Shown in pieces: positions 30,014-33,538 of a stretch of 33,538 nucleotides of DNA (position 1 is its first letter; every line of letters starts with the position of its first letter). Where the stretch lies: NCBI GenBank assembly GCA_007125155.1, contig SLDR01000029.1, positions 1 to 33,538 on the forward strand. The letters are read 5' to 3'. The stretch is from Candidatus Campbelliibacteriota bacterium (lineage in GTDB: Bacteria; Patescibacteriota; Minisyncoccia; Phycocordibacterales; CSBR16-193). Below the pieces are notes generated by a model that searched no databases, was not told the DNA's origin, and worked only from the letters and a program-made list of their open reading frames with translations. Position numbers and translations under genes: made by a program.

Positions 30014-31186
30014 ATGTCTAAACAACAAAAGATCACATGGTCATCCTCTGCTCGCAAGTTGAATGATCTGATCAAAAATGGATACAATCCGCGTAAGTTA
30101 AGCGAGAACGAAAAAAGAGACCTAGAAAAATCGGTAAAGGAGTTTGGAACGGTTGTTCCTGTTGTCGTAAATATTGGATCAAGAACCAATATTATTATTG
30201 GGGGTGAACAAAGAGCAAAAGTCTATGCTGACCTTGGTATAGAAAGTATCGAGTGCATGGTTCCTTCTCGAGAACTAACGCTCGAAGAAGAGAAAGAACT
30301 CAATCTCCGCCTCAACAAAAATACAGGCTCATGGAATGAAGAACTTTTAAAAGAATTCGATATGAGTTTGCTCCTTGATGTCGGATTTGGGGACGATGAA
30401 CTCCAAAATTTATTTGATGATGTCGATGTTATCAATGACGACTTTGATATTGAGAAAGCACTCGAGGAAACAATTACACCGAGAGTAAAATCGGGAGAGA
30501 TTTGGGAACTTGGAAATCATAGATTTCTTGTTGGCGATTCTACCAACCAAAAACTTGTACAGAAACTTATGAAGGGAGATTTGGCGGACATCGTCTACTG
30601 CGATCCGCCGTACAACATCGGACTAGATTATTCCAAGGGAGTTGGAAATAAAGAAAAATATCAGGGCTCGTATTCCGCAAAAGATGACTCTAAAAAAGAT
30701 TCTGTCTATATGGAGTTTTTGGACAAGAGCCTTGAAACTGCAAAAAGCGTGAGCAAGACAAACGCCCACTATTTCTATTGGTGTGATTCTTCATACATTT
30801 GGATGACTCAGACTTTGTACGCCAAGCACAAGATTAATGCTAAGCGTGTAGTTCTGTGGCTCAAGAACAATCAAAATCCGACTCATAAAATTGCATTTAA
30901 TAAAGTATATGAACCGTGCATCTATGGAACCACTGGGAAACCATATCTCAACACTGGAATGAATAATTCTAATGAGATCCTTAACCAAGAAGTGACCACT
31001 GGCAATCAGGTTCATGACGAAATACTCGACATGATAGATATATGGATTGAAAAAAGAGATAACGCCCAAGCGTATCAGCACCCCACCCAGAAGCCTGTAA
31101 CTTTAAATGAAAAGCCGTTTAAAAGATGTAGCGCACCTCTCCATATTGTCTTCAGTGGATTTGCTAATAATGGCCTAGGCAGATAG
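30014..31186 (+). pseudogene. ParB-like N-terminal domain fused to DNA methyltransferase; C-terminus truncated
   Basis: ParB-like NPRKLSENEKRDLEKSVKEFGTVVPVVVN...GGEQRAKVYADLG; DIVYCDPPYNIGLDY (DPPY motif IV); ends HPTQKPVTL...HIVFSGFANNGLGR stop where an FxGxG motif I is expected. Confidence 0.75.
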
Positions 31187-31203
31187 CAAAAAGCTCCCCG
31201 CCA

Positions 31204-31371
31204 GGCAGATGGGCGTAAACCCATCCATGCCGGTTTCCCGACACGACCGTCCAAGGTACTCCTGACGAGGAGTTCTTTACCTTGGACGGATTTCTAAGCC
31301 ATACCCACCGAAATTATCAATGGGGTTAGGCCGTATTCAATTGTCAATTGAATTCTACCAATTTAACGGCC
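31204..31371. other. Three consecutive stem-loops upstream of the DGR target promoter
   Basis: GATGGG/CCCATC with GGCA/TGCC; CCGTCCAAGGTA/TACCTTGGACGG; GGCCGT/ACGGCC enclosing ATTCAATTG/CAATTGAAT. Confidence 0.7.
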
Positions 31372-31448
31372 GAATTCCTAGCTTCCTTATAGCTTAAATG
31401 ATAGGGTTTGCGAAGAGGAGTTGCCAAGGTCGGGACATTGCCCAGCCC

Positions 31449-31476
31449 TTGACAGAATGGTTAGTTATGATATAAT
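31449..31476 (+). promoter_or_regulatory. Consensus sigma70-type promoter driving the DGR target gene
   Basis: TTGACA - 16 nt - TATAAT. Confidence 0.75.
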
Positions 31477-31508
31477 ATCAAAATAGTTCTTTGATATTAG
31501 GTTCAGGA

Positions 31509-31561
31509 CATGAGGTGAGCTTTTTGTGGCTTTATACAGGCCTTAGAAAGCTCGCCTCATG
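31509..31561 (+). promoter_or_regulatory. Structured 5' leader hairpin of the DGR target
   Basis: CATGAGGTGAGCTTT (31509-31523) / AAAGCTCGCCTCATG (31547-31561): 15-bp stem with one G-T wobble. Confidence 0.75.
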
Positions 31562-31618
31562 TTGAGGCAAGTCGCTTGTCCGAGCGGTTCGGATAATCAA
31601 ACGAAAGGAGATAACGTC

Positions 31619-32518
31619 ATGACGACGATTACTCAGCAGTCCGCAACCACCGGCCAGATCAAGCAGATCAACCGGTTCGGGTCCGATGCTATCGAGAAGG
31701 TTCTCGAAGATCTCGGCCTCGACAACCCCGGCGCCCAGCGCGTCATTGAGCACGGCGACGAGTTTGCCCGTGCGATCCACGAAGCGGCCCTCACCTCGCT
31801 CAAGGACCTGTCGGTCACCGACAAGTACAAGAACGAGGAAGTCGCCTCGAACTACGGCTACCTCTCCGGCTACACGAAGCCCAAGTCGATCACGGAGCAG
31901 TGCAACATTCTGCGCCAGATCTTCCCGGGTGTCGGGTACGCTGATGAGAAGCTCGCCGAACGCGAAGTGCCGAAGCACGCCGAAGGATGGTTCGCCATCC
32001 CGAAGTGGCAGACGGTCGCCCCGACCTACGCCGAGGCGGTGCAGAAGGTGCTCGACGCGATCAAGAAGGCCCGAAACGGCAAGTTCTACAACTACCGTGA
32101 CGGCCAGATCGTGAACGAGCGTCTGCGCCAGACGGCCAAGACGGAGGCCATGTTCGGCAAGCTCGGCAACGAGCAGAAAGATCACGACATCCTCGTGGTC
32201 GCCGCCCAGTTCGGTCTGCGTCATCGCGGTCGCTCGGTTCGCCGGGCACGCGAGGTCATGCAGGCGAACGAGTGCGGTCTCGGTGCCTTCGCTGTCGGGA
32301 TCATGATCCTGACGCATCCCGAGCGTCTCCAGCATCTGGACGATCTCTGGATCGACTGCGCTGGTGACGAGTTCGACGATCCGGATGCCGACGATCGCTT
32401 CGATCACGCCCCGTACTTCTTCTTCGACGACGGCAAGGTCGAGTTCGACGCGTTCTGGTACGGCTACGCCTACGTCAACGGTGGTGGGTCGGTGTCGGCC
32501 TTCGTTCCGCAGTCCTGA
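31619..32518 (+). CDS. DGR target (variable) protein with C-terminal variable region
   Basis: AAGGAG RBS upstream of ATG 31619; 299 aa; the last ~45 codons are a diversified copy of the TR at 32917-33048. Confidence 0.93.
   Translation: MTTITQQSATTGQIKQINRFGSDAIEKVLEDLGLDNPGAQRVIEHGDEFARAIHEAALTSLKDLSVTDKYKNEEVASNYGYLSGYTKPKSITEQCNILRQIFPGVGYADEKLAEREVPKHAEGWFAIPKWQTVAPTYAEAVQKVLDAIKKARNGKFYNYRDGQIVNERLRQTAKTEAMFGKLGNEQKDHDILVVAAQFGLRHRGRSVRRAREVMQANECGLGAFAVGIMILTHPERLQHLDDLWIDCAGDEFDDPDADDRFDHAPYFFFDDGKVEFDAFWYGYAYVNGGGSVSAFVPQS
32379..32513 (+). repeat. DGR variable repeat (VR)
   Basis: 135 nt aligned to the 132-nt TR; nearly all mismatches at TR adenines; shared 3' block GGGTCGGTGTCGGCCTTCGTTCCG as candidate IMH. 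Confidence 0.93.
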
Positions 32519-32564
32519 ACCTTGAGGGCTTGATTGCTTGACACTTTTGAGTCCTTGAACCTTT

Positions 32565-32579
32565 GTCCGCGAAGCGGAC
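32565..32579 (+). other. Short GC-rich hairpin downstream of VR
   Basis: GTCCGC-GAA-GCGGAC perfect 6-bp stem. Confidence 0.6.
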
Positions 32580-32582
32580 TCG

Positions 32583-32617
32583 CCGGGTTATCCACATGTT
32601 GGATAGCCCGGTTTTTT
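32583..32617 (+). terminator. Rho-independent terminator of the target gene
   Basis: CCGGGTTATCC...GGATAGCCCGG followed by TTTTTT. Confidence 0.75.
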
Positions 32618-32620
32618 CTT

Positions 32621-32649
32621 TTCAAATACCTATGAATTTTTGATACAAT
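32621..32649 (+). promoter_or_regulatory. Putative promoter for the TR transcript
   Basis: TTCAAA - 17 nt - TACAAT upstream of a long non-coding leader to TR. Confidence 0.35.
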
Positions 32650-32916
32650 AACGAGTGAGATTAGGCTCATGAACAGTAGTTTACGGATTGCTGTCGCCGA
32701 ACTCTCTCTTCAAGTAAGAGAAATAACAACCAGCGTCTTAGAGATCATGGTTTCTAAGAGAGTGTTGTATTGAGGAGACACTGCTTGTTTCCGTCTGGTG
32801 AAGGTGTTGAGAATATTTTTCAACTGCTTCCATATAAAATACAGGAGTGAGAGCGTGCCCTATTTCCAGTAGGGACCATGTTCAAGCTCTGGTGGCATGG
32901 ATGGACGGAGACAATT

Positions 32917-33048
32917 ATCCGGATGCCGACGATCGCTTCGATCACGCCCCGTACTTCAACTTCAACGACGGCAAGGTCAAGTTCGACACGAACTGGTACG
33001 ACAACGCCAACGACAACTATGGGTCGGTGTCGGCCTTCGTTCCGAAGT
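32917..33048 (+). repeat. DGR template repeat (TR)
   Basis: AAC-rich copy of the VR (...TACTTCAACTTCAACGACGGCAAGGTCAAGTTCGACACGAACTGGTACGACAACGCCAACGACAACTATGGGTCGG...). Confidence 0.93.
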
Positions 33049-33061
33049 TTCTCCCCAAAGC

Positions 33062-33086
33062 AAAAAGCACCTACACGGTGCTTTTT
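33062..33086. terminator. Bidirectional terminator between TR and convergent avd
   Basis: AAAAAGCACC-TACAC-GGTGCTTTTT. Confidence 0.75.
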
Positions 33087-33089
33087 GTA

Positions 33090-33434
33090 TTAGTCGTTCT
33101 TAAGAGAGCGTATCCAGCCACCGAGCATGCGTCCGATCTCGTCAACTTCGCCCTGTACCACTGTGTACTTCTTGTTATCAAGCGCTTTCGTGTCCTTCAT
33201 GAGCCGTATGAACACACGAAAAAGATTAAGATCAACACTTACTTGCTCGAGCGTCGGTATCTTTTCTTTCTTCGACTGTCCGCTTGCTCGAAAGATACCA
33301 GACATGACATCGAGTAAGACGCTTTCTGAGCGCTCAAAGGTGGTGAAGCGATCTTTCTTGGGTATCAAACGATGATACTCGTGGAAAGTCTTATACAAGT
33401 CGTATGACTTTTTAAATATTGGCAGGTACCCCAA
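33090..33434 (-). CDS. avd: Avd-like four-helix-bundle DGR accessory protein
   Basis: LPIFKKSYDLYKTFHEYHRLIPKKDRF...LDNKKYTVVQGEVDEIGRMLGGWIRSLK; C-terminal pattern as in bAvd (AEVGRILGSWIARV); start codon uncertain (TTG). Confidence 0.85.
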   Translation of the reverse strand: MGYLPIFKKSYDLYKTFHEYHRLIPKKDRFTTFERSESVLLDVMSGIFRASGQSKKEKIPTLEQVSVDLNLFRVFIRLMKDTKALDNKKYTVVQGEVDEIGRMLGGWIRSLKND

Positions 33435-33436
33435 AT

Positions 33437-33538
33437 CTAGGACACCAATTCTTTCTCCAATAATACTTCACTTTGCCTGGCAAAGGCAACCGGTGCCATA
33501 TTTAAGGCGGTATGTATCCGCTTAGTGTTGTAATAATA
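33437..33538 (-). mobile_element. C-terminal fragment of DDE transposase/integrase core (IS3/IS481-like), truncated by window edge
   Basis: Reverse-strand frame YYYNTKRIHTALNMAPVAFARQSEVLLEKELVS stop, typical of the integrase-core C-terminus. Confidence 0.7.

Follow-up and report, generated by a model that had tools for sequence, protein, structure and literature searches.

Near one end of a 33,538-nt contig from an ultra-small Candidatus Campbelliibacteriota bacterium (SLDR01000029.1; this whole stretch is the window in what follows), the last coding stretch of a gene is repeated almost unchanged in a non-coding segment downstream. Do the two copies belong to a diversity-generating retroelement (DGR), how is its template RNA organised, and what has become of it in this genome? 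DGRs are common in Patescibacteria, and to our knowledge detailed insight into how they work comes mainly from a single phage element. The reading that we favour, at a probability of about 0.85, is that the locus is a DGR belonging to a type widespread in Patescibacteria, working by the mechanism proposed below and damaged in this genome by an insertion sequence (IS).

The TR/VR pair and its target gene

The features of the target gene and its repeats are as follows.

31449-31476 (+): promoter-like site of the target gene, TTGACA-16-TATAAT, 12/12, consensus match only
31619-32518 (+): DGR target gene, 299 aa, with homologues in relatives
32379-32513 (+): VR, 3' coding end of the target, in frame (repeat comparison, alignment)
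32582-32612 (+): terminator-like hairpin of the target gene (terminator scan)
32917-33048 (+): TR, non-coding (repeat comparison, alignment)

A repeat search returned exactly the VR and TR coordinates proposed in the first-pass annotation, and VR is, as had been claimed there, the coding C-terminal end of the target, in frame with the rest of the 299-aa gene. The core alignment of TR with VR contains 14 substitutions which, tabulated by TR base, are not spread evenly: 13 are at adenines and one at a thymine (hypergeometric p = 1.3e-8 for a TR with 32 A in 132 bases). The only non-adenine substitution noticed by eye, beside a 3-nt insertion in VR, was recovered at the thymine. At 32480-32484 TR reads TAT and VR GGTGGT, that is, one non-adenine change plus the 3-nt insertion; the two nearest relatives, the loci L021 and G026, carry no change and insertion of this type, and the insertion perhaps arose by slippage during cDNA synthesis.

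The earlier count of 13 adenine substitutions is correct, but one of them had been misread as mutagenesis. The terminal AAG>CAG change (A33045>C) occurs likewise in L021 and G026, with AAG in TR and CAG in VR, and is therefore a fixed 3'-end difference of the IMH/IMH* type. When it is set aside, 12 of 13 substitutions remain at TR adenines (p = 7e-8). Before the indel, the TR adenines occupy codon positions 1 and 2 only, with none in position 3, so adenine changes there mostly alter the amino acid.

In relatives the genes are arranged as target (+), TR (+), avd (-) and RT (+), where avd and RT start back to back and the RT is of the DGR type. Over 2.3 kb (31157 to 33422) L021 is about 96% identical to the window; the TRs are one base apart and the VRs 22 columns apart, mostly at TR adenines. 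The contig L021, an almost exact match to the window's DGR, comes from a MAG labelled Loktanella, an alphaproteobacterium; most likely it was binned there in error. Two IMG/VR phage contigs (L170 and L171), which carry targets of the same family, have 9,516 bp in common with 22 differences, 20 of them in the 131-bp VR and two just upstream of it, and their TRs are identical. Fifteen of the 20 VR differences are at TR adenines. DGRs of this type thus work in nature, as relatives rather than reads of this genome demonstrate; the variability check called for in the first pass was positive in these close relatives, with VR varying and TR constant. The DGR reading itself is upheld by the adenine bias, the presence of Avd, the complete cassette of relatives with its DGR-type RT, and VR hypervariation over an invariant TR. 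The first pass missed three features taken up below: the lack of an RT together with an IS at the start of avd, a structured RNA 5' of TR, and CTTGA repeats 3' of VR.

In genome G101, VR and TR are on separate contigs, and 20 of their 21 mismatches are at A. A remote VR acting in trans was considered and set aside, since both repeats lie at contig ends and a contig break suffices to explain the split. Another locus, L028, has tandem target genes (348-1166 and 1482-2303) before one TR, with an adenine-biased VR in both.

DGR targets are usually expected to be binding proteins. The target protein here had no matches in Pfam, NCBIfam, PHROG or PDB, and Foldseek returned none with its AlphaFold2 models, which are of low confidence (pLDDT 57 for the full protein, under 40 in the VR domain, and 40 for the C-terminal 120 aa alone). 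These models speak neither for nor against a C-type lectin fold, the fold looked for in the variable domain of a DGR target. Many Patescibacteria MAGs have homologues, as do phage contigs, and genes near these homologues encode, by inspection, terminase, portal-like and recombinase proteins; a search of annotated phages with the target gave no match.

The target gene has a GC3 of about 0.84 (A at 4% of third positions) versus about 0.35-0.45 for the genome. A higher GC3 in the target body than in flanking genes was observed in 38 of 45 DGRs from the order and related loci (means 0.55 vs 0.41, Wilcoxon p = 2.5e-7), and RT genes have no such elevation. The elevation is level along the whole coding sequence of the target and ceases outside it. 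Avoidance of adenine as its cause is unsupported, with thymine depleted too and the elevation flat over the gene.

A folded RNA leader 5' of TR and the 3' flank of VR

Upstream and downstream of TR, and downstream of VR, the following features were located.

32521-32558 (+): CTTGA motif array, 8/17-bp spacing, directly 3' of VR (counts versus shuffles)
32565-32579 (+): perfect 6-bp hairpin GTCCGC-GAA-GCGGAC, 51 nt from VR, present in some relatives and absent from others
32621-32649 (+): promoter-like site for the TR RNA, TTCAAA-17-TGnTACAAT, consensus match only
32770-32916 (+): structured RNA leader 5' of TR, about 145 nt (alignment, folding, covariance model)
32774-32778 (+): 5' strand of P0, at the 5' edge of the leader (leader fold)
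32785-32796/32903-32914 (+): strands of P1, closing a junction with two arms (leader fold)
33050-33054 (+): 3' strand of P0 (UCUCC), a proposed helix (own-versus-swapped partner tests)
33062-33086 (+): terminator-like hairpin AAAAAGCACC-TACAC-GGTGCTTTTT, found by inspection and not flagged by the terminator scan

The TR flanks of 25 DGRs with an antisense avd were aligned, and most of them contain a conserved non-coding block abutting the 5' end of TR. Its consensus fold consists of the closing stem P1 and two arms, with compensatory changes in 22 of 27 pairs, and single-sequence folding of the window leader alone gave a z-score of -4.36. A covariance model built from 18 loci matched 40 loci at E up to 0.1, and matches with a known TR abut it on the same strand. 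The model recognised 15 of 22 held-out loci with an antisense avd and none of the eight with a same-strand avd (Fisher p = 0.001), the latter giving no meaningful match. Across the class it matched 60 of 384 genomes; all 27 new loci examined in unseen genomes had an antisense avd downstream, and 21 of them had a VR within reach; of the 400 mismatches in these pairs, 373 were at adenines. In 38 sequences outside model building, 96.6% of cells were paired and 298 were double-changed, versus 40-56% paired and 39-68 double-changed cells in a slid-partner control with the same 38 sequences; for these RNA tests A5 was fitted to the covariance model's own structure, and permutation p-values are optimistic because the sequences are related. 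The leader matched no family in Rfam 15 and appears to be an undescribed RNA, as far as the papers searched go, Yan et al. 2019 and Roux et al. 2021 among them.

The gap between TR and avd is 41 nt with a hairpin in the window and 41-64 nt with a hairpin in the 25 antisense-avd loci. Complementarity between the two P0 strands was greater for own than for swapped partners, both in the dereplicated first set (p = 0.0018) and in 24 unseen loci (p = 0.00025), kinship making both p-values optimistic.

The flank of VR has a signature of its own. CTYGA motifs occur 65 times in 21 VR downstream flanks versus a shuffled mean of 3.0, mostly at a spacing of 8 or 17 bp, and just four follow TR across 16 TRs.

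Avd, the missing RT and the insertion sequence

The end of the contig downstream of TR contains two overlapping features.

33090-33434 (-): avd, antisense to TR, with IS sequence in place of native codons 1-7 (profile matches, comparison with L021)
33421-33538 (-): IS end, terminal repeat and transposase C-terminus finishing in ...YYYNTKRIHTALNMAPVAFARQSEVLLEKELVS and a stop, common to the ends of contigs C27 and C31

Avd was identified by matches to NF033474 (equivalog; 81 bits, cut-off 80) and PF22296 (63.6 bits, cut-off 40). At the same junction, L021 has an intact avd start and the first RT codons. The truncated avd could use a TTG start inside the IS end. The window's contig ends where relatives carry RT, and neither PF00078 nor a DGR RT query detected an RT in the 745-kb assembly (98.95% complete); the same PF00078 search recovered RTs in relatives. 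Repeated sequences are places where assemblers fail. The same 109-bp IS end is present on three contigs of the genome (the window's contig, C27 and C31), and since the other two also end in these 109 bases, the assembly probably broke at the repeated IS. The assembly yielded no further copy of the IS end and no IS end next to RT sequence. The RT of this genome is either unassembled beyond the IS or gone. Because the IS cut avd and no RT was found, this copy of the DGR is probably broken (or its RT unassembled), and because IS entry separated avd from RT, VR is probably frozen here unless an intact RT lies beyond the break. The IS has damaged the locus, and we infer a loss of function in this genome.

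A LOOT RNA (RF03000, 88 bits), the genome's sole copy, is located just 5' of the target at 31208-31332 (-). LOOT also lies beside the DGR in L021 and in the phage contigs L169-L171, and seven of 68 LOOTs are within 3 kb of an avd versus 0.7 expected (p = 1e-5). As a general DGR part it was rejected, being enriched near avd but mostly found elsewhere. Further upstream, a phage-like gene with ParB-N and DNA methyltransferase parts (30014-31186) is cut off near 31157, the position at which identity to L021 starts. The phage contig L169 has a related methyltransferase ahead of terminase-like genes and the DGR, and this order together with the cut-off suggests a prophage remnant. Next to another copy of the IS end, contig C27 of this genome (L172, 5814-7719) carries a terminase-like fragment together with a large serine recombinase, possibly the other part of the same remnant.

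Three other explanations of the locus were weighed. The absence of an RT from the assembly, the one non-adenine substitution and the 3-nt insertion in VR count against the favoured reading, and the last two, together with the arrangement of TR and VR as direct repeats 538 bp apart, speak for ordinary duplication or gene conversion. TR would then be a decayed partial copy of the target end and its bias a matter of chance or selection. Such an origin fits poorly with an adenine bias of p about 1e-8, with a TR that is conserved while VR changes (L021; L170/L171), with the linkage to Avd and RT in relatives and with the same bias (373/400) in unseen loci, and we regard it as exceedingly improbable. 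The conserved block 5' of TR could alternatively be promoter or regulatory DNA, or an mRNA leader, rather than belong to the template RNA. In favour of this are its upstream, non-coding position and the promoter-like sites further 5'; the covarying pairs of the 27-pair consensus, among which G-U pairs on the TR strand are numerous, point to an RNA instead, as do the exact end of the block at TR, its P0 pairing with the TR 3' flank and its absence from same-strand-avd DGRs, so that this explanation seems unlikely to us.

Better placed than either, though still doubtful, is the idea that the DGR remains active here, with the IS present in only part of the population or an intact RT beyond the IS on an unassembled or unbinned contig, and with a TTG-started Avd that works. 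The contig breaks at an IS end whose 109 bp are found on three contigs, VR and most of avd are open, and L021 has an intact avd/RT junction, all of which is compatible with activity. Against it are the failure to detect RT in a 98.95%-complete assembly by a search that finds it in relatives, and the assembly's lack of an extra IS-end copy or of an IS end beside RT sequence.

Proposed mechanism and comparison with known DGRs

On the favoured reading, that of a Patescibacteria-type DGR interrupted by an IS, a short non-coding RNA would be transcribed across the folded leader and TR and would end soon after TR. RT and Avd would bind the folded leader, which the long-range helix P0 would tie to the 3' edge of TR. 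RT would then copy TR into cDNA, misincorporating opposite adenines, and this cDNA would take the place of VR in the 3' end of the target. What distinguishes VR from TR would be its 3' sequence, probably the CTTGA array. In this genome, entry of the IS into avd would have separated avd from RT.

The locus resembles the DGR of Bordetella phage BPP-1 (mtd, avd, TR, brt) in the adenine-specific transfer from TR to VR (here deduced from sequence), a VR that lies in the target's 3' coding end, the presence of Avd and a DGR-type RT (the latter here in relatives), and a GC-rich invariant 3' end (IMH/IMH*). The BPP-1 TR-RNA contains avd coding sequence 5' and a folding spacer 3' that recruits bRT-Avd and primes cDNA (PMC12875486). 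Unlike BPP-1, the window has avd in antisense, a folded RNA 5' of TR and only 41 nt from TR to avd, and it is without a folded spacer 3' of TR, where the 25 antisense-avd loci have 41-64 nt and a hairpin. By analogy, the leader may do the job of the BPP-1 spacer, with P0 bringing it to the 3' edge of TR.

In BPP-1, an 8-bp hairpin located 4 nt after VR guides retrohoming (PMC3240598). BPP-1-type hairpins have 7-10 bp and a GRNA loop and lie 4-34 bp after VR, whereas that of the window has 6 bp, a GAA loop and a distance of 51 nt. The hairpin at 32565-32579 is a possible counterpart of the BPP-1 cruciform; a BPP-1-like hairpin after VR as the site mark was rejected, as its presence is inconsistent among relatives. 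Also unlike BPP-1, the VR of the window is followed by CTTGA repeats, and this array is probably what tells VR from TR, making it a candidate for the task of the BPP-1 hairpin.

Roux et al. 2021 described DGR clade 2 as cell-encoded Patescibacteria DGRs with targets without transmembrane or other recognisable domains (PMC8144416). The window DGR resembles this clade in its host and in a target without a recognised domain; unlike the cell-encoded description, relatives of the target are also found on phage contigs. The terms 'RNA structure', 'orientation' and 'accessory' are absent from the main text of that paper (PMC8144416). The cassette patterns of Yan et al. 2019 comprise TR, VR and RT only, and non-prototypical orders were already known from that work (PMC6642488); an antisense avd and a leader RNA of TR are not part of the scheme.

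For a large class of Patescibacteria DGRs, and for phages with the same cassette, we lean, with some reserve, towards a common organisation, in which a folded domain 5' of TR would recruit RT-Avd and start cDNA synthesis, the long-range helix P0 would bring this domain to the 3' edge of TR, the RNA would end right after TR, and a CTTGA array with 8-bp spacing rather than a cruciform would mark the VR site. The covarying leader provides a concrete RNA for testing RT-Avd binding and priming. Its model can serve to find DGRs without recourse to the RT or to a comparison of TR with VR, and the CTTGA array offers a testable target-site mark, including for sites far from a TR.
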